From the NCBI GenBank assembly GCA_013043965.1, contig JABEVF010000007.1, forward strand, positions 1 through 37,952: a DNA stretch of 37,952 nucleotides, given 5' to 3'. Position numbers and translations under genes: made by a program. How positions within the stretch are numbered: the stretch's first letter is position 1; each line of letters starts with the position of its first letter. The notes under the pieces are model-generated. The model was given only the letters and a program-made list of their open reading frames with translations. It was not told where the DNA came from and made no database searches. This document shows positions 1 to 37,952 of this stretch, in pieces. The stretch comes from Gallionella sp. Its GTDB lineage: Bacteria > Pseudomonadota > Gammaproteobacteria > Burkholderiales > Gallionellaceae.

Positions 1-195
1 CGAAACAAAGCGAGCCGATGAAAACAACGAAAAAATGACCTGCGTAGCGTCAATGCTTCACGTTGACTTCACTGCACGGGGAGTTTTGCAAGAGGCTCGT
101 TAGTAATTAGAATTGAACCTCATATCGGCAACTTGCTTACATTGCCTATACAGATAGATAGTATGCGAAATGTAAATTATCGGGGAACAAGCACA
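1..195. other. Leader region upstream of the pilin cluster, no gene recognised
   Basis: I see no recognisable coding sequence here. It is AT-richer than the genes that follow and should contain the promoter of the pilin operon, but I could not assign a convincing -35/-10 or -24/-12 pair. A GGGGA ribosome-binding site at 182-186 serves the small prepilin remnant that starts at 196. Confidence 0.4.
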
Positions 196-8705: not shown

Positions 8706-10085
8706 ATGGATCAATCAAATCGTTATGCAGATCTGAGCTTGGATGAAGCCGAGCTGATCAAAAACGGTAAGCACATTCTGGTGGCATACCACATGACTCC
8801 GGCACAGGGTCACGGTTATTTGGAGACCGCAGCGCACTTCGCGGCCGAATCCTCGACCGGTACCAACGTGGAAGTTTCCACCACCGATGCATTCACCAAG
8901 GGCGTGGACGCGCTGGTTTACTTCATTGATGAGGTAAAGGGCGTAATGAAGATCGCTTACCCGTCGGTATTGTTCGATCGCAACATCACCGATGGCCGCG
9001 CTATGATCGTGTCTTTCCTGACCTGTGCAATCGGTAACAACCAAGGCATGGGCGACGTGAAATGCGCGCAAATGCAAGACTTCTATGTTCCGCCCGACAT
9101 GCTCAAGCAATTCGACGGCCCTTCAGTCGACATTTCCGATATGTGGCGTATCTTGGATCGCCCGCTCAAGAACGGTGGTTATATCGCCGGTACGATCATC
9201 AAGCCTAAGCTGGGTCTGCGTCCTGAACCATTCGCTAAAGCGGCATTGCAATTCTGGTTGGGCGGCGATTTCATCAAGAACGATGAGCCACAAGGCAATC
9301 AAGTGTTCTGCCCGATGAAGAAAGTCATTCCATTGGTTTACGATTCGATGAAACGTGCGATGGATGAAACCGGCCAGGCGAAGATTTTCTCCGCCAATAT
9401 TACGGCCGATGACCATTATGAAATGCTGGCTCGCGCCGATTTCATTCTGGAAACTTTCGGACCGGACGCAAACAAGGTGGCCTTCCTGGTTGACGGTTTT
9501 GTGGGCGGCCCCGGCATGATTACCACGGCTCGTCGTCAATACCCCCAGCAGTATCTGCATTACCACCGCGCCGGCCACGGCATGATCACTTCGCCTTCGG
9601 CCGTCCGCGGTTACACCGCGTTCGTGTTGGCCAAAATATCCCGTTTGCAAGGTGCTTCCGGTATCCACGTGGGTACGATGGGTTACGGCAAGATGGAAGG
9701 CGGCCATGATGACCGCAACATCGCTTACATGATCGAGCGTGATTCTGCCGATGGTCCTTACTATCACCAAGAATGGTTGGGCATGAAGCCGACCACGCCT
9801 ATCATTTCCGGCGGCATGAACGCGTTGCGTTTGCCCGGCTTCTTTGAAAACTTGGGCCACGGTAACGTGATCAATACTTCAGGCGGCGGAGCTTATGGCC
9901 ATATCGATTCTCCGGCCGCAGGCGCGATTTCCTTGCGTCAGGCGTATGAATGCTGGAAAGCGGGTGCCGATCCTATCGCCTTTGCCAAGGAGCACAAGGA
10001 GTTCGCCCGCGCGTTCGAATCATTCCCTGGCGACGCGGACAAGTTGTATCCAGGCTGGCGTGAAAAACTGGGCGTACACAAATAA
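8706..10085 (+). CDS. cbbM: Ribulose-1,5-bisphosphate carboxylase, form II
   Basis: This 459-residue form II RuBisCO large chain fixes CO2 onto ribulose bisphosphate in the Calvin cycle and needs no small subunit. The active-site residues are all present at form II positions: Lys166 (TIIKPKLG), carbamylated Lys191 with Asp193 and Glu194 ([10 protein letters not shown]), His287/Arg288, His321 and loop-6 Lys329 ([11 protein letters not shown]). GGGAGAG lies 7 bases before ATG 8706. It is the first gene of the cbbMQO set, divergent from cbbR. A strong terminator follows, so cbbM is probably made in excess over cbbQO. Form II enzymes have low CO2 specificity and suit low-oxygen, CO2-rich habitats. 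Confidence 0.98.
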
Positions 10086-10190: not shown

Positions 10191-10994
10191 ATGACAAACA
10201 AAGATCAATACAAAGTAACTAAAGAGCCGTTTTACCAAGCGCAAGGCGATGAAATCGCGCTATATGAAGCTGCATACCGATCCCGTTTGCCGGTGATGGT
10301 GAAAGGCCCGACAGGTTGTGGAAAATCACGCTTTGTCGAGTATATGGCCTGGAAACTGAACAAGCCGCTGATCACGGTGGCGTGCAATGAGGATATGACC
10401 GCCAGCGATCTGGTCGGGCGCTATTTGCTGGATGCAAACGGCACGCGTTGGTTGGATGGTCCGCTGACGGTTGCCGCGCGCATCGGTGCGATTTGCTACT
10501 TGGACGAGATCGTGGAAGCGCGGCAAGACACAACGGTGGTGATCCACCCGCTGACCGATCATCGCCGCACTTTGCCGTTAGACAAGAAGGGTGAACTCCT
10601 GGCGGCACACCCCGATTTTCAATTGGTGATTTCCTATAATCCCGGCTATCAAAGCCTGATGAAGGATTTGAAGCAGTCGACCAAGCAGCGTTTTACCGCT
10701 TTCGATTTCGATTATCCGGTGGCGGATGTCGAGGCTGATATCTTGAGTAAAGAAACAGGTATGGACAAAGCCATCTCCGCCCAGCTGGTGAAGATCGGCG
10801 CGGTGGCACGCAACCTTAAAGGCCACGGTTTGGATGAAGGCATTTCAACGCGCTTGCTGGTTTATGCGGCCACGCTGATCAAAGATGGTGTCGCGCCGCG
10901 TGCCGCGTGCCGTATGGCCTTGGTGCGTCCTATCACCGACGATGCGGATATTCGCGACACGCTCGATCATGCCATTGATGCGACGTTCGCATAA
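10191..10994 (+). CDS. cbbQ: RuBisCO activase AAA+ subunit CbbQ
   Basis: The product is 267 residues, the normal size for CbbQ/NorQ MoxR-type AAA+ ATPases. Walker A is GPTGCGKS at 39-46, Walker B is ICYLDE at 101-106, and the sensor region reads VISYNPGYQS. CbbQ forms hexamers that bind one CbbO and remodel inhibited RuBisCO by releasing tight-binding sugar phosphates. The gene is 105 bases after cbbM and directly before cbbO, which is the canonical order and distinguishes it from the related NorQ of denitrification. The ribosome-binding site (GAGAG) is weak. Confidence 0.93.
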   Translation: MTNKDQYKVTKEPFYQAQGDEIALYEAAYRSRLPVMVKGPTGCGKSRFVEYMAWKLNKPLITVACNEDMTASDLVGRYLLDANGTRWLDGPLTVAARIGAICYLDEIVEARQDTTVVIHPLTDHRRTLPLDKKGELLAAHPDFQLVISYNPGYQSLMKDLKQSTKQRFTAFDFDYPVADVEADILSKETGMDKAISAQLVKIGAVARNLKGHGLDEGISTRLLVYAATLIKDGVAPRAACRMALVRPITDDADIRDTLDHAIDATFA

Positions 10995-11022: not shown

Positions 11023-11052
11023 AATCCTCACGCACTGCTTTAATTGAAAAAT

Positions 11053-13359
11053 ATGGAAATCCGGACGATTCCACCCGAACTGGAAAATTATTGGAAAGAA
11101 CTCGATTGCGGTTTCAAGCAAGTCGAGCAGGTCTTTGCCGGATGTATGCGGGAAGCCCTGGCGGTTCTGTCGCGGCAAGGGGCGGCAGAATATATCGTGA
11201 ACGCGCGCTTCCTCGGTAAAATGGGGCGCGGGGCGGAGCCGATCCTGGTATTTCTGGAAATCGCCCCGAACACCGCTAAAATACTGGGTGAAGGGGCGAT
11301 GCCCGCGATCATGGCGTGTATCAAAGTGTTGTGGAAATCGCCTAACGGGAAATCCATCACGCCGTTTTTGCAGAGTCTGCATGCCGTCGCGGAGAGGTTG
11401 TGCACAGCGGAGCAGATGCAACTTTATTTGAACCTGGTGTTGAATTTCATGGAACGCACCACCGGTTCGGTACACGGCATCCATAAGACCTTCCCTAGCC
11501 CGGGTTTGCCGGATTTCTTGAATCAAGCACCGCGCCTGCTGAGCTCGCTGACTATCCAAGGATTGCGAAACTGGGTGGAATACGGGGTGCGCTATTACAA
11601 CAACCATCCCGAGCGACAGATTGATTATTTCACGCTGCAATCGGCGGACAGCCGCGCCGTTCTCCAGCGCGAGCGTCATGGTACCTTGCTGGTGGATAAC
11701 GAGCGCAAGCTGGACTTGTATATGCGCGGTTTGTGGGGTGATCCCGAGCAGTTGATTCCCTACTCTCTGGCGTTTGACGAGTTGCGCAAACCGCAACCTT
11801 ATTTTGATAAGCTGGGTATCCGCTTGCCGGATGTGTATGAAGACTTCGTCCCACCCATAGCCGTTCGACAAGCTCATGATGCACCACCAACGGTTGCCAG
11901 TGTTTCCGGGTTGGATCGATACCGTGCCAGCTTGGCGCATATCGCCGCGCACCGCCGTTGGAGCAAGGCCATCATAGCGGACAATTTCAGTCCGTTCCAA
12001 CGCATAGCCATCGAGTTGTTTGAAGACTCTCGAGTGGAATATCTGGCGATGCGCGAGTATCCCGGTTTGCGATCGGTCTTTCTCGCGCTGCACCCCGAGC
12101 CGGAAGAGAACGCCTGCGATACGGAGCATGAGTCCTGCATACGCCATCGGCTGGCGATGTTGTCGCGGGCGATTCTGGATAAGCAGCATCCCTATCAAAA
12201 CGCCCACATCGTCGAGTATGTGAACCGTTTTTACGAGTTGCTGCAAGGCGGCGATGCCAGTACCGCCGATATGGCTGACCTGGGAGTTTCATTCATCACC
12301 AAGACACGTTTGAGAAGCGATCAGTCAGCCAAGATATATTTCAAAAATACAGAAGTGGATTATCGCGATGACAATCGCCATCTGTGGCAATTCATCGAAC
12401 AAGGTGATGAGGAAGAAACGTTTGCCGAGCAACGCAACCCGCAATCAGACGAAACATTAAAGGAGTTGCCACCGCGCCTCTACCCGGAATGGGATTACAG
12501 CAACAGCACTTATCGCCCGGACTGGGTGAGTGTGTACGAGCGCATCCATCCGCATGGCAACCCGGCCGATCTCGATGCGTTGTTGAACAAGCACAGCGCA
12601 CTGGCGAAACGTCTTAAGAGGCTGCTCGATCTGCTCAAGCCGCAGAACAAGGTGCGCATACGTTATCAGGAAGAAGGCAGCGAGCTGGATCTGGATGTGG
12701 CGTTGCGTTCCCTGATCGACTACAAGAGCGGAGCCGCACCCGACCCGCGCATCAACATGAGCCACCGCAACGATGGGCGCAGTATCGCGGTGATGCTGCT
12801 GGTGGACCTGTCCGAATCACTGAATCAGAAAGCGGCAGGATGCGATCAGACTGTTTTGCAACTGAGCCAGGAAGCCCTGTCCCTATTGGCCTGGGCGATA
12901 GAGAAACTCGGTGACCCGTTTGCAATCGCGGGCTTTCATTCCAACACCCGCCACGATGTCCGTTACCTCCACATCAAAGGCTATAGCGAGCATTGGGGCG
13001 ATGAAGTGAAGGGCAGATTGGCCGCGATGGAAGCCGGTTATTCGACGCGCATGGGCGCGGCGATGCGCCATGCGGCGCATTATCTGGAGCGGCAACCCGC
13101 CGATAAAAAGCTGCTGCTGGTGCTGACCGATGGTGAACCGGCCGACGTCGACAGCCACGACGAGAGGCTGCTGATCGAAGATGCGCGCATGGCGGTAAAA
13201 GAGCTCGATCTACAGGGCATTTTCAGCTATTGCATCAACCTCGATCCCAAGGCGGATGAGTATGTCGCGGATATCTTTGGCAAGCAGTACACCATTATCG
13301 ACAATGTGGCGCAGTTGCCTGAAAAACTGCCCACGCTTTTCATGTCATTGACGAAGTAA
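11053..13359 (+). CDS. cbbO: RuBisCO activase adaptor CbbO
   Basis: The product has about 768 residues from ATG 11053; a TTG nine bases upstream is an alternative start and neither has a clear ribosome-binding site. The C-terminal part is a von Willebrand A domain with an intact MIDAS: DLSES near residue 585 and LVLTDGEP near residue 690. CbbO bridges the CbbQ hexamer to RuBisCO, and its VWA domain contacts an acidic residue on the enzyme. The N-terminal two thirds is the helical region typical of CbbO/NorD proteins, and the place after cbbQ in a cbb cluster supports CbbO over NorD. About 185 bases separate it from fbp. Confidence 0.92.
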   Translation: MEIRTIPPELENYWKELDCGFKQVEQVFAGCMREALAVLSRQGAAEYIVNARFLGKMGRGAEPILVFLEIAPNTAKILGEGAMPAIMACIKVLWKSPNGKSITPFLQSLHAVAERLCTAEQMQLYLNLVLNFMERTTGSVHGIHKTFPSPGLPDFLNQAPRLLSSLTIQGLRNWVEYGVRYYNNHPERQIDYFTLQSADSRAVLQRERHGTLLVDNERKLDLYMRGLWGDPEQLIPYSLAFDELRKPQPYFDKLGIRLPDVYEDFVPPIAVRQAHDAPPTVASVSGLDRYRASLAHIAAHRRWSKAIIADNFSPFQRIAIELFEDSRVEYLAMREYPGLRSVFLALHPEPEENACDTEHESCIRHRLAMLSRAILDKQHPYQNAHIVEYVNRFYELLQGGDASTADMADLGVSFITKTRLRSDQSAKIYFKNTEVDYRDDNRHLWQFIEQGDEEETFAEQRNPQSDETLKELPPRLYPEWDYSNSTYRPDWVSVYERIHPHGNPADLDALLNKHSALAKRLKRLLDLLKPQNKVRIRYQEEGSELDLDVALRSLIDYKSGAAPDPRINMSHRNDGRSIAVMLLVDLSESLNQKAAGCDQTVLQLSQEALSLLAWAIEKLGDPFAIAGFHSNTRHDVRYLHIKGYSEHWGDEVKGRLAAMEAGYSTRMGAAMRHAAHYLERQPADKKLLLVLTDGEPADVDSHDERLLIEDARMAVKELDLQGIFSYCINLDPKADEYVADIFGKQYTIIDNVAQLPEKLPTLFMSLTK

Positions 13360-28569: not shown

Positions 28570-28833
28570 TCAGGCAGCACGCCGCTTAGTGGTGCTTGCT
28601 GTCGCTGGATGAGTCAGTTCTGTCGAGCGTTGTGCAAACTCGACAATGGCGTGTAGCGCGGCATTCACGGAGGCAGCATCGGGAAAGGTCGCTGCCAATT
28701 CGGGTTCTATCAGCACAAGGTTAGAGCCTTCCGTTTTCAAGCGGCTGGCATAACGTCCCCGCTGTGCCTTGGAAAAATCAAAATCATATTCAGGGCGCAA
28801 TTCATCTGTGGCGGTTTGCTTTTTAGATTTCAT
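28570..28833 (-). CDS. brnA: Antitoxin of the BrnT/BrnA type
   Basis: The product has 87 residues from the ATG at 28833, which overlaps the brnT end by 11 bases and has AAAGGAA upstream. The N terminus reads ELRPEYDFDFSKAQRGRYASRL, a pattern common in antitoxins paired with BrnT, followed by a short helical region that may form a ribbon-helix-helix and a basic tail. It should neutralise BrnT and repress the operon. It is shorter and less canonical than classic BrnA, so the name is by partner. Confidence 0.75.
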   Translation of the reverse strand: MKSKKQTATDELRPEYDFDFSKAQRGRYASRLKTEGSNLVLIEPELAATFPDAASVNAALHAIVEFAQRSTELTHPATASTTKRRAA

Positions 28834-29092
28834 AACGTTTCCTTTCATGGTTGGTTGCCAGTCTGGCACTGATGATCCGTATCGTGTCGCCTTGTTCGGT
28901 GTGTGAAATTACCAGCAGTTTCCCATCGAGTGCCATGCCATAAGTAATTAGCCTAGCTTCACTTTTTGCATGATCCGGGTCAGGAAATGTCGCAGATAAT
29001 TCATCTTCAAAAGCTCCTGCTGCTGACTCAAATGAGATGCCGTGTTTCTTCAGATTTGCGGCAGCTTTCTTGTCATCCCATTCAAACTTCAT
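28823..29092 (-). CDS. brnT: BrnT family ribonuclease toxin
   Basis: The product has 89 residues and matches the BrnT (DUF497) family closely: MKFEWDDKKAAANLKKHGIS, FESAAGAFEDELSATFPDPDH, ISHTEQGDTIRIISARLATN. BrnT is a RelE-fold ribonuclease that blocks translation when unbound. The toxin-first order is normal for brnTA. A promoter and operator-like palindrome precede it. It lies between metH and the metH remnant. Confidence 0.92.
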   Translation of the reverse strand: MKFEWDDKKAAANLKKHGISFESAAGAFEDELSATFPDPDHAKSEARLITYGMALDGKLLVISHTEQGDTIRIISARLATNHERKRYEI

Positions 29093-32947: not shown

Positions 32948-33268
32948 TTAATAACCTTGGAAGAGAAAATCCAGCGCGGCCGTGATGGCGGCATGATGGT
33001 CCGACAAAGAAGCGACCGGCGTTTGCAAAATCTTGGCAGGCACAGCCGCTAATTTTGCAGTCTCCATAAAGCAGGGCAGCCCACCAATCTCAAATGCGGG
33101 CGCGAGGCTCTTGGGTAGTGCCACTTTATCGAAGCGATCCACGCGGCGCATTGGCACAACCACGCGACTATCCAACGCGCTCAATAAGTCACTTTGCACT
33201 TCCAGCAAGTAGGGAACGTCGGATTTTTTTGTATGGCCTGGATTGGGATAAATATCGAAACGCGCCAT
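32948..33268 (-). CDS. ccdB: CcdB-type gyrase toxin
   Basis: The product has 106 residues and is a clear CcdB family member: ARFDIYPNPGHTKKSDVPYL, LLEVQSDLLSALDSRVVVPM. F-plasmid CcdB traps DNA gyrase through its last three residues Trp-Gly-Ile. Here the end reads DFLFQGY, so Gln replaces Trp, Gly is kept and Tyr replaces Ile. It starts 2 bases after the ccdA stop. It lies on the chromosome between comM and metH. Confidence 0.92.
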   Translation of the reverse strand: MARFDIYPNPGHTKKSDVPYLLEVQSDLLSALDSRVVVPMRRVDRFDKVALPKSLAPAFEIGGLPCFMETAKLAAVPAKILQTPVASLSDHHAAITAALDFLFQGY

Positions 33269-33270
33269 CG

Positions 33271-33519
33271 TCAGAACGTCCGATACTGTTCGAGCGGCAG
33301 GCCATCTTTTTCGATGCGCTTGTTATACGCAGCAATAAAATCAGCATTTTCTGCCAGCCATTGCTGCTGCTTCGCCTCGCGTACCACTCGCGCCAAATAC
33401 TCCTCTACCGTCTGCGACAGATTGATATGCAGCTCTTTGGCTTGACGCAACAAATCCGAGTTGATGCTTAGGTTGGTCGCTTTTTTCGGTGCGTTGGTAT
33501 CGAAATGAACGGTTGTCAT
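33271..33519 (-). CDS. ccdA: CcdA-type antitoxin
   Basis: The product has 82 residues from the ATG at 33519, with GGAGG 7 bases upstream. It fits CcdA: a DNA-binding ribbon-helix-helix N terminus (KKATNLSINSDLLRQAKELH, INLSQTVEEYL) and a C-terminal tail that binds the toxin (WLAENADFIAAYNKRIEKDG). It neutralises CcdB and represses the operon. Its promoter touches the comM stop codon. Confidence 0.92.
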   Translation of the reverse strand: MTTVHFDTNAPKKATNLSINSDLLRQAKELHINLSQTVEEYLARVVREAKQQQWLAENADFIAAYNKRIEKDGLPLEQYRTF

Positions 33520-33537
33520 GTTTGCCTCCATTGCAGA

Positions 33538-33573
33538 TGTGCACAGTATATGCGCATGAATGATACGCAGCAA
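33538..33573 (-). promoter_or_regulatory. ccdAB (and possibly metH) promoter
   Basis: On the - strand TTGCTG (33568-33573) and TATACT (33545-33550) are exactly 17 bases apart. The palindrome TGTGCACA (33538-33545) overlaps the -10 edge and may be the CcdA operator. The -35 lies directly after the comM stop. Confidence 0.65.
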
Positions 33574-34232
33574 TTATCCGTTTTTATCCATGCGCCGGTA
33601 CTGCACGGCTTCGGCGATGTGCGCAGTCAGAATATTCCCACTGCCAGCAAGATCGGCGATGGTGCGCGCCACTTTGAGCACGCGATGGTAGGCGCGCGCG
33701 GAGAGATTCAAACGGGTGATAGCCTGCCGCAACAGCGCCTCGCCTTCTGCATCGGGCGCGCAGTAGCGATCTATTTCGGTGACGGAGAGTTGTGCGTTGG
33801 GTTTGTTCTGGCGGACCAGTTGCCGTTGCCGTGCCGCCTCGGTTCGGGCTTGTATGGCCGTACTGGCTTCGCCGTCGGCTTGCTTAAGCAAGTCTTCCTG
33901 GGGCACGGCGGGGACTTCGATCTGGATGTCGATGCGGTCCAGCAACGGGCCGGAGATCTTGCCGCGATAGCGCGCGACTTGATCCGGGGTGCAGCGGCAC
34001 TTGCCGTTGTAGTGTCCGAGATAGCCGCAGGGACAGGGATTCATCGCGGCGACGAGCTGGAACTGTGCCTTGAAATCGGCGCGCCGCGCCGCACGCGAGA
34101 TGGTGATGCGCCCGCTTTCCAGCGGCTCGCGCAACACTTCCAACACGCCCCTGTCGAACTCCGGCAGCTCGTCCAAAAATAAAACGCCGTGCATCGCGAC
34201 GGAGATTTCGCCGGGGCGCGGGTTGCTGCCTC
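33574..34232 (-). pseudogene. comM: ComM C-terminal half, interrupted by transposon
   Basis: The preserved part begins at GSNPRPGEIS and continues through HGVLFLDELPEF (Walker B), LREPLESGRITISRAA, and the C-terminal Mg-chelatase domain to the stop. The N-terminal lon-like domain and the Walker A GxxGxGKT are absent, displaced by the Tn7-like element. ComM is a helicase that promotes branch migration during natural transformation. The other half should lie beyond the far end of the element. The junction is at 34232/34233; a start codon inside the transposon end is fortuitous. Confidence 0.92.
34228..34232. other. Putative 5-bp target-site duplication of the Tn7-like element
   Basis: GCCTC directly abuts the terminal TGT at 34233. 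Tn7-family elements duplicate 5 bases of target. The second copy would be beside the far end, outside the window, so this is an inference. Confidence 0.45.
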
Positions 34233-34376
34233 TGTGACTTTTCGAAATAGATGCGATCATGTCAACCAGCAATCAAGTAGTTACGTTACAATAACTTGAA
34301 ATAAATGCGACGATATTCAACCATTAGCTGCGACTTAGGTGTGATTTATGCAAAATAGCTGCGACGAAGTTCAGTC
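34233..34376. promoter_or_regulatory. Transposon right end with repeated TnsB-binding-like sites
   Basis: Four related sequences occur: GAAATAGATGCGATCATG (from 34244), GAAATAAATGCGACGATA (from 34298), TTAGCTGCGACTT (34324-34336) and AAAATAGCTGCGACGAAG (from 34352). Common core: AAATA-R-M-TGCGA-Y. The outermost site lies 11 bases inside TGTGAC. TGTGATTT at 34340 repeats the terminal motif. The last site overlaps the tnsA start, which would let TnsB repress its own operon, as in Tn7. Confidence 0.72.
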
Positions 34377-35043
34377 TCCACGACAAATGCGGCGAATTGG
34401 CGTGACGCGTCGTAGTGTTTCGGGAATCTACGCCTTTCGGCGCGAGACCGCCGTCCCATTCGAGTCTACGCTTGAGCGAGATTTCATAATCCGTAAGGAA
34501 TTTTGCCTTTCAGTTTTGGAGGTCATCCCGCAGCCGGTTCAGATTCCATTCGTGGCCAGTAACGGGCAGACGTACACCTACACTCCTGATTTCCTCGTGT
34601 ACTACCGCCTTGGCAATATGGGCTACGGGGAATATCCAAAGCCTCTTCTTGTCGAGGTGAAGCCTCGAGCAGAATGGAAACAGCACTGGCGCGAGTGGAT
34701 GCCAAAATGGAAGGCCGCTTACCGCTACGCCAAAGAACAGGGATGGGACTTCCACATCCATGACGAATCTCGTATCCGCGATCAGGTGCTTGAGAATATC
34801 CGCTTCCTTGACCGATACAAGCGCACTCAATTCCCAATCGAAGACACCCGGTCCGTGATCGAAAGTGTCAGGCAGATGGGCGGTACAGCATTTCATTACC
34901 TCTTGGCCAAGCACTTCATGGGTATTTATAAGGCCGAGGGTGTTGCACACATCTGGCATCTTCTCGCAACACGCCAACTTGATTGCGACATTTCACTTCC
35001 TTTGAGCGATTTCACAGAGCTATGGGTGCCCACCTATGAATAA
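34348..35043 (+). CDS. tnsA: TnsA endonuclease
   Basis: The product has 231 residues from ATG 34348, with AGG 9 bases upstream; ATG 34387 would leave all TnsB sites outside the gene and is also plausible. TnsA is a restriction-endonuclease-fold protein that nicks the 5' ends to give cut-and-paste transposition. The catalytic pattern is intact: Glu in ESTLERDF (39-46), Asp81 in YTPDFLV, and Glu103/Lys105 in LVEVKPR. The C-terminal part (about 130-231) has the TnsC-contact helical domain. It overlaps tnsB by 8 bases. Confidence 0.92.
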   Translation: MQNSCDEVQSPRQMRRIGVTRRSVSGIYAFRRETAVPFESTLERDFIIRKEFCLSVLEVIPQPVQIPFVASNGQTYTYTPDFLVYYRLGNMGYGEYPKPLLVEVKPRAEWKQHWREWMPKWKAAYRYAKEQGWDFHIHDESRIRDQVLENIRFLDRYKRTQFPIEDTRSVIESVRQMGGTAFHYLLAKHFMGIYKAEGVAHIWHLLATRQLDCDISLPLSDFTELWVPTYE

Positions 35044-36964
35044 CAAAACTGAACACGAAATGGATTTGATGAAAGAATCCTTCGAGCCAGTTCGCAAGCG
35101 TGTAGATATTCAGGCAGGCGGACTTGTCCAACATCTTGAATCCATTTATCGCATCACAGAGGTGTTGGACTTCGATTCTATTATCGGCGTGGAAGTGGAA
35201 ACAGGTCGCAGTGCCCCGCTTCGAATAAATGAACTCCGCCCTGTCGTTGCTGATACCGCTCAGGCAACAGAGGATATTGATGAAATTGCTGATGAAGACT
35301 GGAAGATTGCACAGCAACGCTATGCTGCGATCAAGCCGCTTCTCACCATATCGATGATGGGGCGGCATGATGTTGCGCAACGCGCTAAAGAGGTTGGCTC
35401 TGATACTGCTACCTTGTACAGATGGTTGCAAAAATATAATGCAATTGGTGTCATCACTGCGCTTATCCCCCAGAAACGCGGCTGGAAGGAAGGCAAGAGC
35501 CGAATCCCTGTGTTTGCAGAACAAGTGATCGACGAGGCAATCAAGGATTTCTATCTGACCAATCAGCGCTCAACTCCGCAGAAAACTGTGACTGAAGTTC
35601 TTCGCCGCTGCCAGCAGCGCGGTATTGAAGCACCGAGTCCGAGCACCATACGCGCGCGCATTGGTAAGGTGACAGAAAAGCAGCGATTGCGCGGTCGGGG
35701 CTTTAAGGAAAAGGCCAAGAACAAATTCCTTCCAGTGCCCGGCAGTTTCCCTAACGCCGATTTTCCGCTGGCGGTTATTCAGATCGATCACACACCCGCC
35801 GACATAATTCTCGTGGATGATTACTATCGCAAACCTATCGGACGGCCTTGGATCACTCTGGCGATGGACATTAACAGTCGCATGGTAACGGGCTACTACC
35901 TATCGTTTGATCCGCCTTCTGAAACTTCAGTTGCAATGTGTGTGGCTCATTCAGTTCTTCCAAAAGATGAATGGCTGTTGCTGCATAAAGTTGATGCTCA
36001 ATGGCCGGTATGGGGATTCCCCAAAACCATCCACGTGGACAATGGTGCAGATTTCCGCTCTAACAACTTCCAACAATCATGCCTGATGTATGGCATCAAC
36101 CTTGAATATCGTCCAGTGAAGCAGCCGCGTTATGGTGGACATATCGAGCGTGTGCTTGGAACACTGCTTCGTGAAATACACGAACTACCTGGCACCACGT
36201 TCTCTTCCATCAAAGATAAGGAAGGCTACAACTCTGAAAAAGAAGCTGTGATGACCAAGTCTGAATTTGAGACGTGGCTGGTCACTCTGATCTGCAAGGT
36301 TTACCACCAGCGCATGCATAGTGGTATCGGAATGTCACCTCTTCGTAAATGGGAGATTGGCGTTTTCGGGAACACTGAAATTCAGGGTGTAGGTCTTCCT
36401 GCACGGCCTGCGGATCGCCTGACCGTCCTTTTGGATTTCCTCCCTTCCTTCCGCCGTACTGTGCAAACCTTTGGCGTAACCATCGATGGCATGACCTATT
36501 ACGCAGATGTACTTCGTCAGTGGATTAACGCTGAGGATCCGGAAATCAAAGGGAAGAAGCGAGAATTCATTTTCCGGCGCGATCCGCGAGACATCAGCAC
36601 TGTGTGGTTCTTCGATCCCGACCTCAAGCAGTATTTCAAAGTCGCATTCGCAGATCAGGCTCTGCCATCGATGAGTATCTGGGAATACCAGCAGGCGCGT
36701 GATGCACTCAAGCGCGAAGGCAAAAAAAGCGTCAACGAGCATCAGATTCTTCATGCCATCACCGAGCTGCGCAGCCAGGTTGATGAGTCCAAGGAAAGGT
36801 CCAAGAAGGCTCGCCGCTCTAACCAGCGGCGCAAAGAGCATGAGAAGAAAATTTCCCCTGTGGCACCCTTGCCACAGCAGCCTGTTCGCAGCCCTGTTAC
36901 ACCGCCGACACTGTATGTCGGGCTGGTTGATGGGGATATCGATTCATTTGGAGATATCGCATGA
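35036..36964 (+). CDS. tnsB: TnsB DDE transposase
   Basis: The product has 642 residues, a normal size. N-terminal helix-turn-helix domains include RHDVAQRAKEVGSDTATLYRW. The rve-type catalytic core has the full DDE triad: Asp251 (VIQIDHTPAD), Asp335 (IHVDNGADF) and Glu371 (YGGHIERVLGT). A Mu-transposase-like beta-barrel follows (about 450-560), and a Pro-rich C-terminal tail may contact TnsC. It binds the repeated end sites and makes 3' cuts and strand transfer. ATG 35036 overlaps the tnsA stop. Confidence 0.96.
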   Translation: MNNKTEHEMDLMKESFEPVRKRVDIQAGGLVQHLESIYRITEVLDFDSIIGVEVETGRSAPLRINELRPVVADTAQATEDIDEIADEDWKIAQQRYAAIKPLLTISMMGRHDVAQRAKEVGSDTATLYRWLQKYNAIGVITALIPQKRGWKEGKSRIPVFAEQVIDEAIKDFYLTNQRSTPQKTVTEVLRRCQQRGIEAPSPSTIRARIGKVTEKQRLRGRGFKEKAKNKFLPVPGSFPNADFPLAVIQIDHTPADIILVDDYYRKPIGRPWITLAMDINSRMVTGYYLSFDPPSETSVAMCVAHSVLPKDEWLLLHKVDAQWPVWGFPKTIHVDNGADFRSNNFQQSCLMYGINLEYRPVKQPRYGGHIERVLGTLLREIHELPGTTFSSIKDKEGYNSEKEAVMTKSEFETWLVTLICKVYHQRMHSGIGMSPLRKWEIGVFGNTEIQGVGLPARPADRLTVLLDFLPSFRRTVQTFGVTIDGMTYYADVLRQWINAEDPEIKGKKREFIFRRDPRDISTVWFFDPDLKQYFKVAFADQALPSMSIWEYQQARDALKREGKKSVNEHQILHAITELRSQVDESKERSKKARRSNQRRKEHEKKISPVAPLPQQPVRSPVTPPTLYVGLVDGDIDSFGDIA

Positions 36965-37857
36965 ACACGAACAGCTACGAACACATCCATCCAGACTTTC
37001 GGCACATTATGGGCATGAGCGATAGTGAGCGGATTGCATTCATGGATCAGCCGCGCTGGATTAGCAATAAATCTGCGCAACATATCCTAGATACCCTGCA
37101 AGGCTTGCTACAGAAGCCGGTTCGTCCCCGCATGCCTAACTTGCTGATTGTAGGGGAATCGAACAATGGGAAGACAACTGTTGTTCAGCGTTTTCGTGAA
37201 TTGTGCGGACAGGGTTACGTCAACGAAGATGCCGAGCCTGTGAAGCCGGTGATTGTCTCTCAAGCACCACCCAGTGCCGACGAGAAAGGGTTGTATGTTT
37301 CCATTCTTGAGTGCTTCTTTACTCCCTATCGGGCAACTGACCCAGCCACGAAGTTAAGGTATCAGGTCATACACCTTCTCCGTATGTGCCATACCAGAAT
37401 GCTCATCATTGACGAGTTCCATTCCCTGCTCACCGGCACGCCAGTAAAACAGCGTGAGGTAATGAACGCAATCAAGCTGCTGTGCAATGAGCTTGCCATC
37501 CCCATCGTGGGCGTAGGCACGCGTGAAGCTGTGCGCGTGCTGCATACCGACCCACAGCATGCCAGCAGGTTTGATGTGATGACACTACCACTATGGGAGC
37601 TGAACAAAGACTTCCAGCAATTGCTGGCCGGGTTTGAGAAAGTGTTGCCACTCAAGAAGCCATCGAAGCTGCACACGCCTGAATTGGCCAGTTTGCTGCA
37701 CACTATTTCCGAAGGTAATACAGGTAATCTTCATCGGCTGTTGATTGAGTGTGCTACCGAGGCGATCAAAAGCGGCAAAGAGCAAATCGACAAACCTATC
37801 ATTGAGAGTAAAGCATGGTTGCGGCCTACGCGCGGCATCCGGGAACGGATAGCGTGA
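36961..37857 (+). CDS. tnsC: TnsC/TniB AAA+ ATPase
   Basis: The product has 298 residues, nearer to TniB and short TnsC than to the 555-residue Tn7 TnsC. Walker A is GESNNGKT at 65-72 and Walker B is MLIIDE at 147-152. A sensor-like VGVGTREA follows. The protein forms ATP-dependent filaments on DNA and links the target selector TniQ to TnsB/TnsA, and gives target immunity. Its ATG overlaps the tnsB TGA, and its stop overlaps the putative tniQ start. Confidence 0.93.
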   Translation: MNTNSYEHIHPDFRHIMGMSDSERIAFMDQPRWISNKSAQHILDTLQGLLQKPVRPRMPNLLIVGESNNGKTTVVQRFRELCGQGYVNEDAEPVKPVIVSQAPPSADEKGLYVSILECFFTPYRATDPATKLRYQVIHLLRMCHTRMLIIDEFHSLLTGTPVKQREVMNAIKLLCNELAIPIVGVGTREAVRVLHTDPQHASRFDVMTLPLWELNKDFQQLLAGFEKVLPLKKPSKLHTPELASLLHTISEGNTGNLHRLLIECATEAIKSGKEQIDKPIIESKAWLRPTRGIRERIA

Positions 37858-37952
37858 ATTCCCAATGGGTGGTTCGCGTCCCGTTATTGCCAGACGAAAT
37901 CATTTCGTCATGGCTGGTGCGCGCAGCACTCACCCAGGGATGCGATCCATTA
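37854..37952 (+). CDS. tniQ: TniQ/TnsD family target-selection protein, 5' part
   Basis: Only 33 codons are visible, running off the window edge. From GTG 37854 (overlapping the tnsC TGA) the sequence contains LLPDEIISSWLVRAA, the hallmark N terminus of TniQ/TnsD. An in-frame ATG at 37815 inside tnsC is the alternative start. TniQ proteins choose the attachment site; full length and zinc-finger content, which would tell TnsD from short TniQ, cannot be judged here. Confidence 0.82.
   Translation, partial: MNSQWVVRVPLLPDEIISSWLVRAALTQGCDPL

Follow-up and report, generated by a model that had tools for sequence, protein, structure and literature searches.

Which mobile element interrupts the comM gene of a Gallionella genome, and by what means did it reach its site? 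These questions are raised by the right-hand end of a 37,952-base contig (C12), analyzed here in its entirety and referred to as the window, from a draft genome of 157 contigs (2.48 Mb, 95.73% complete). We consider it highly probable that the locus is the left part of a Tn7-like transposon of the Tn6022 family, which homes to comM through TniQ together with TnsF. The initial annotation had described comM as split between the Walker A and Walker B regions and followed by a TGTGAC tip, tnsA, tnsB, tnsC and tniQ, and this arrangement is seen in the window, with tniQ present as its first 46 codons:

33574..34232, minus strand: 3' part of comM (yifB), interrupted by the element; the open reading frame (ORF) runs into the element to 34272
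34228..34232, no strand: presumed 5-bp target duplication GAGGC (comM sense), single copy visible
34233..34365, plus strand: left end, with the TGTGAC tip and four motifs resembling TnsB sites
34348..35043, plus strand: tnsA, endonuclease of 231 amino acids (PF08722, 2.9e-19; PF08721, 1.4e-8; both over cut-off)
35036..36964, plus strand: tnsB, DDE transposase of 642 amino acids (PF09299, Mu-transpos_C, 3.3e-9, over cut-off)
36961..37857, plus strand: tnsC, AAA+ protein of TniB type, 298 amino acids (PF05621, 3.5e-72, 242.2 bits, over cut-off)
37814..37952, plus strand: start of tniQ (46 codons), truncated at the contig end (assigned by frame and by likeness to the TniQ of the relative G015)

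The ORF that holds the 3' part of comM (33574-34272) matches PF01078 (Mg_chelatase, positions 94-206) and PF13335 (Mg_chelatase_C) over their cut-offs. Its match to TIGR00368 (positions 283-499, 272.7 bits) stays under the whole-protein cut-off of 362.4, as expected given that comM is a fragment here. This part is 93% identical over 218 amino acids to the intact comM of the genome G071, and when mapped onto that copy the junction lies inside GGGSNPRPGEIS, with GPPGTGKS on one side and VLFLDE on the other, which we take to be the Walker A and Walker B motifs, respectively. The codons interrupted are those for GGGSN, in the interval between the two motifs.

The reading frames of tnsA, tnsB and tnsC are all open. 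TnsA retains the motifs FESTLERD, YTPDF and LVEVKP, and TnsC retains GESNNGKT and LIIDEFH. The match of TnsB to PF00665 (rve) is under cut-off at 22.7 bits; its residues D251, D335 and E371, which are invariant across five aligned TnsBs, are proposed as the DDE triad. Four copies of the motif TGCGAY, putative TnsB sites by their likeness, lie at 34246, 34300, 34323 and 34354 in the left end, and the 18-base tip starting at 34233 has no second copy in the genome even when three mismatches are allowed. A three-motif pattern is found once in the host genome and once in G015, both times at the left end, and since its reversed control gave 2 and 3 hits, only the matching position of these hits counts.

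What lies beyond the contig end can be predicted from relatives. The nearest named locus is that of Gallionella sp. C15_maxbin.107 (contig JAUXWM010000023.1), with which G015, a genome of the host's genus, agrees in position and protein sequence. G015 shares with the window both the gene set and the exact comM base of the insertion, and its set goes on to a complete tniQ (376 amino acids) and tnsF (508 amino acids); by analogy, the window element is expected to continue with the rest of tniQ and with tnsF, and to have the duplication and a right end. The extra targeting protein foreseen in the initial annotation is thus present in this relative as TnsF. An AlphaFold model of the G015 TnsF shows a modest likeness to tyrosine recombinases over residues 304-479, and its sequence profile alone matched no tyrosine recombinase. 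Between the window and G015, TnsA, TnsB and TnsC are 87%, 92% and 97% identical, which exceeds the identities of comM (80%) and metH (85%) and fits a horizontal spread of the element, though stronger constraint on the tns genes may alternatively be the source of the difference.

In a TnsB tree the window groups with the loci L131 and L132 (support 100/100), within an 18-row clade (100/98) that includes two Acinetobacter plasmid elements, whose records do not name them Tn6022; the window TnsB is 50% identical to an Acinetobacter plasmid copy. This clade bears out the proposed relationship to Tn6022 and AbaR. Fourteen loci retrieved with the window TnsB, from beta-, gamma- and 'delta'proteobacterial assemblies (L142 and L144 share one assembly), have comM beside the genes in 12 cases, and the remark that such elements are little described in hosts of this kind has to be softened on this account. 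A TnsF match was obtained at 13 of them; the contig of the remaining one (L132) ends first. In the metagenome-assembled genome YP4.bin20, the tnsF frame of L142 (7930-9399) is interrupted, and at L144 (1185-3759) tnsF is open and tniQ is in two pieces.

The insertion site is precise. The left tip lies 17 nucleotides from the PGE codons of comM in 13 of the 14 TnsF-type loci, including the window, and 16 nucleotides from them in L134. All eight relatives whose two ends were retrieved (G011, G017, G087, G132, G143, G147, G023 and G069) show an exact 5-bp duplication around TG...CA tips (TGGG...CCCA in G143), the two ends lying on one contig in six of them, 13.4 to 47.5 kb apart, and on two contigs in G023 and G069. 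A chance match of five bases is likelier than usual at this site because it is GGC-rich. It is by this precedent, at the matching place, that GAGGC is presumed to be the target duplication; the 5-bp duplication that had been proposed as a check is seen in these relatives, and the window itself offers one copy only.

Faure et al. 2023 (PMC10293859) report, in the portions consulted here, that the short TniQ of Tn6022 elements (369 amino acids) is accompanied by TnsF (498 amino acids), that TnsF binds comM and requires a stretch of 10 bp within Walker B, and that loss of TnsA, TnsB, TnsC, TniQ or TnsF impairs transposition. With the working mode of TnsF taken from that study, TnsA and TnsB of the window element would cut and join the element, TnsC would serve as the ATP-dependent go-between, and the short TniQ would bridge TnsC to TnsF. 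TnsF, a catalytically reduced protein resembling tyrosine recombinases, would recognize comM near the Walker B codons. The tip on the TnsA side would then be placed 17 nucleotides before the PGE codons, with 5 bp being copied.

The initial annotation also took the element to be intact and perhaps active, which the assembly does not bear out, as tniQ breaks off at the contig end after 46 codons, and neither the rest of this gene, nor tnsF, nor a right end was found. The only TniQ domain match elsewhere in the host assembly belongs to a different set on contig C49, TnsF had no match in the host genome at E ≤ 1e-4 (the window contig stops before the expected place of tnsF), and a search of the assembly for the right end with the left-tip sequence and the three-motif pattern returned the left end alone. 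It had further been suggested that comM should resume beyond the element. Its 5' part does exist, on contig C81, ending after 196 codons at the end of an insertion sequence; about 250 nucleotides of comM, measured against the intact copy of G071, are absent between this cut and that in the window, a search for this middle part in the host assembly gave no match over it, and no second end of the element was seen. The insertion-sequence end (GAGCCTCTTGCAAAACTCC...) is multicopy, occurs in two variants (window 10-98; L005 6004-6102; ends of 13 further contigs) and breaks the assembly; it is present at the window's own left end and is the one that cuts comM on C81.

The set on C49 (L028, 1157-9201) is a second, different Tn7-like set of the same genome, with TnsA, TnsB, TnsC and TnsD. 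Its TnsD matches PF15978 with 230.7 bits, and a 551-residue protein has a sub-threshold match to TnsE_C (18.3 bits, cut-off 26.7). A tnsE on the opposite strand would be expected of a Tn6022 element. With this TnsE-like protein as the single query tried, no tnsE match was obtained in the relatives of the window element; TnsE branches share less than 10% identity, as stated in the consulted part of PMC10293859.

The missing parts would be explained by contigs omitted from the assembly or by a deletion linked to the insertion sequence, and for this reason we make no claim that the element is intact or active. A decayed relic is an unlikely, though not negligible, reading, and it would still leave a Tn6022-family left end in the window. 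On this view comM was hit by an insertion sequence about 196 codons from its start, and this insertion or a deletion cost the locus its comM middle, its selector genes, its cargo and its right end, so that the element has lost its mobility. The relic reading agrees with the cut of comM on C81 by the multicopy end, with the failure to find some 250 nucleotides of comM, the remainder of tniQ, a tnsF or a right end in an assembly that is 95.73% complete, and with the absence of a comM 5' part at E ≤ 1e-15 from G015 also. However, tnsA, tnsB and tnsC are open with their motifs kept, the contig ends inside tniQ without the insertion-sequence end present at other contig ends, and omitted contigs would account for every missing part.

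The element could alternatively carry a long TniQ and no TnsF, as do seven relatives at the same comM loop, of which four belong to the same genus; we regard this as very improbable, since the visible start of tniQ resembles the short TniQ of G015 and the TnsB tree places the window in the clade with TnsF and not with the loci that have a long TniQ. Least credible of all is an assembly chimera, in which a comM contig was joined to an unrelated tns contig. A draft of 157 contigs leaves some room for such an error, but the same join is seen in the separate assembly of G015, and comM adjoins the same genes in 12 of the 14 named loci. A Tn6022-family element directed to comM by TniQ and TnsF is retained as the best explanation.

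The relatives also bear on how comM may be chosen as a target. A TnsB search of 150 genomes, the host's own included, at E ≤ 1e-40 gave 18 matches besides the window, of which 15 were retrieved; G138, G116 and G076, the weakest at 29-32% identity, were left out of the site survey. The glycine loop of comM is the site of nine of these 15 loci (G015, G147, G132, G069, G011, G023, the second G017 locus, G087 and G143). The insertion lies near comM codon 80 in G117 and G027, and the remaining four (G008, the first G017 locus, G061 and G103) have no comM match within the retrieved stretch and no tRNA genes near the element. In G117 (L050, L130), comM is in three pieces, with the Tn7-like set near codon 88 and an insert of about 7 kb near codon 225 that has ORFs resembling serine recombinases by eye.

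Only two of the nine loop loci, G015 and G147, have TnsF. G132 has a TniQ of 366 amino acids followed by a protein without a TnsF match, and in the other six a long TniQ is present and TnsF gave no match; this TniQ is 520-547 amino acids long in five and runs off the contig in G069. A whole-genome TnsF search of the 150 genomes at E ≤ 1e-4 likewise found G015 and G147 only, though a very divergent TnsF could escape it. A search for the long tail in 399 genomes of the order yielded two, G087 and the new G243, whose TniQ of 519 amino acids lies beside comM with no TnsF match and brings the long-TniQ loop loci to seven; among viral contigs, seven pattern matches included no relative. The tip-to-PGE distances of these seven are 17, 17, 18, 18, 18, 20 and 23 nucleotides, and that of G132 is 18. 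Six of these seven loci fall into two groups of the TnsB tree, joined at 92/90, below the mark for firm support, and the placement of G143 is unsure.

The C-terminus of the long TniQ weakly resembles XerD. Two profiles, A1 and A5, matched XerD with E-values of 0.018 and 0.0049, respectively, as the sole non-TniQ molecule below E 0.1 in each, and two short-TniQ profiles did not match XerD; these results favor the likeness. Using hhalign, the long tails were aligned to six recombinases of the host, whose genome gave 11 tyrosine-recombinase matches, some of which served as the comparison set; the values were 74.8% with six tails and 75.3% with seven, and 0.1% for reversed controls. Several results weigh against the likeness: without the divergent G143 row hhalign falls to 16-19%, with five recombinases it gives 46.6% and 52.6%, a tail-only profile without G143 and G243 (A4) did not match XerD, the G143 tail alone matched nothing, and no recombinase domain was found with Pfam and NCBIfam in five long TniQs or with Pfam in that of G243. 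The long tail aligned to TnsF gives 0.2%, which also counts against the likeness. If the likeness holds, the long TniQs would resemble the catalytic part of a recombinase.

One further relative, G061 (L058, 7946-12478), has TnsA, TnsB and TnsC that are 66%, 73% and 75% identical to those of G011, which has a long TniQ and lies in comM. The TniQ of G061, however, shares 81% identity with its counterpart at the first G017 locus, though the TnsBs of these two loci share only 40%, and neither locus is beside comM. To judge from these identities, the target in this one case goes with TniQ and not with the transposase set, and G061 can be viewed as a natural exchange of the targeting protein.

Based on these observations we propose, tentatively and aware that the idea may well fail, that Tn7-like elements of Gallionellaceae and related Burkholderiales have no fewer than two targeting arrangements for comM. 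In one, a short TniQ would work with TnsF as a second protein; in the other, a long TniQ with its own degenerate XerC/D-like domain would need no TnsF. Both would lead to the same glycine codons before Walker B, and exchange of TniQ alone would move an element to another site. If true, two routes would have brought a tyrosine-recombinase fold to a single target, or the fold would have been fused with loss of the zinc fingers. A long TniQ that proved able to find comM unaided would act as a selector made of one protein and aimed at a conserved bacterial gene. The relatives offer a natural experiment on target choice by Tn7-like elements, with one site, two selector arrangements and one related transposase set that differs in TniQ and is not beside comM. 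Five matching cargo genes (a methyltransferase, an unknown, a QueC-like gene, an unknown and a small protein; 23-50% identical) are seen in L143 (16478-20106) and L059 (12950-17255), one a TnsF-type and the other a long-TniQ element, both in comM.

The host side of the window agrees with the RuBisCO-bearing betaproteobacterium that had been anticipated, by its RuBisCO and CbbQ genes and by Gallionella as the genus of the nearest named locus:

8706-10085: RuBisCO large subunit
10191-10994: CbbQ
11044-13359: von Willebrand factor A (VWA) protein, presumably CbbO from its position

A CcdA/CcdB pair (32948-33573) directly adjoins comM, and a BrnT-type toxin gene with a small neighboring ORF is located at 28570-29092. 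An Rfam scan of the window at the gathering threshold gave no match.

That Tn7-like elements target comM is already known, both via TnsF (PMC10293859) and via a CRISPR RNA (crRNA; PMC11406308), as far as the consulted parts of these papers go. Our literature search for comM, Tn7-like elements and betaproteobacteria together found no paper, and Gallionella is not mentioned in the limited set of papers checked on the subject. An iron oxidizer, Acidithiobacillus ferrooxidans, has an island listed at comM, iMGE6, which is given in the consulted part of PMC10322971 with integrases and a size of 94.9 kb. The Type I-B1 CRISPR-associated transposon is guided by crRNA to the same gene (PMC11406308, consulted in part), whereas the window has no visible CRISPR part and its nearest relative has TnsF. 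Tsy, a tyrosine-recombinase transposon with TnsF, also targets comM but is described, in the portions consulted of PMC10293859, without the tns transposase genes, of which the window has tnsA, tnsB and tnsC. Canonical Tn7 (glmS, TnsABCDE) is similar in its TnsA, TnsB and TnsC parts, in the TG...CA ends and in the 5-bp duplication seen in the relatives, but it uses a different site, and the TnsABCD set with a sub-threshold TnsE sits apart on C49. The closest likeness in description is to the Tn6022 family (the AbaR backbone; AjTn6022 of A. johnsonii; PMC10293859, consulted in part), with the gene order TnsA-TnsB-TnsC-short TniQ, the insertion in comM and TnsF next in G015; the window differs in its Gallionella host, in that tnsF is not visible in its own assembly and in that no cargo is visible. 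AbaR25 in comM is reported to be flanked by 5'-accgc-3' (PMC3691203, consulted in part), the reverse complement of GCGGT, and its flank fits the same comM codons as the window element. The window element extends Tn6022/AbaR, a lineage familiar chiefly from the resistance islands of Acinetobacter, whose backbone it forms, to uncultured relatives of iron bacteria at the same base-precise comM site.
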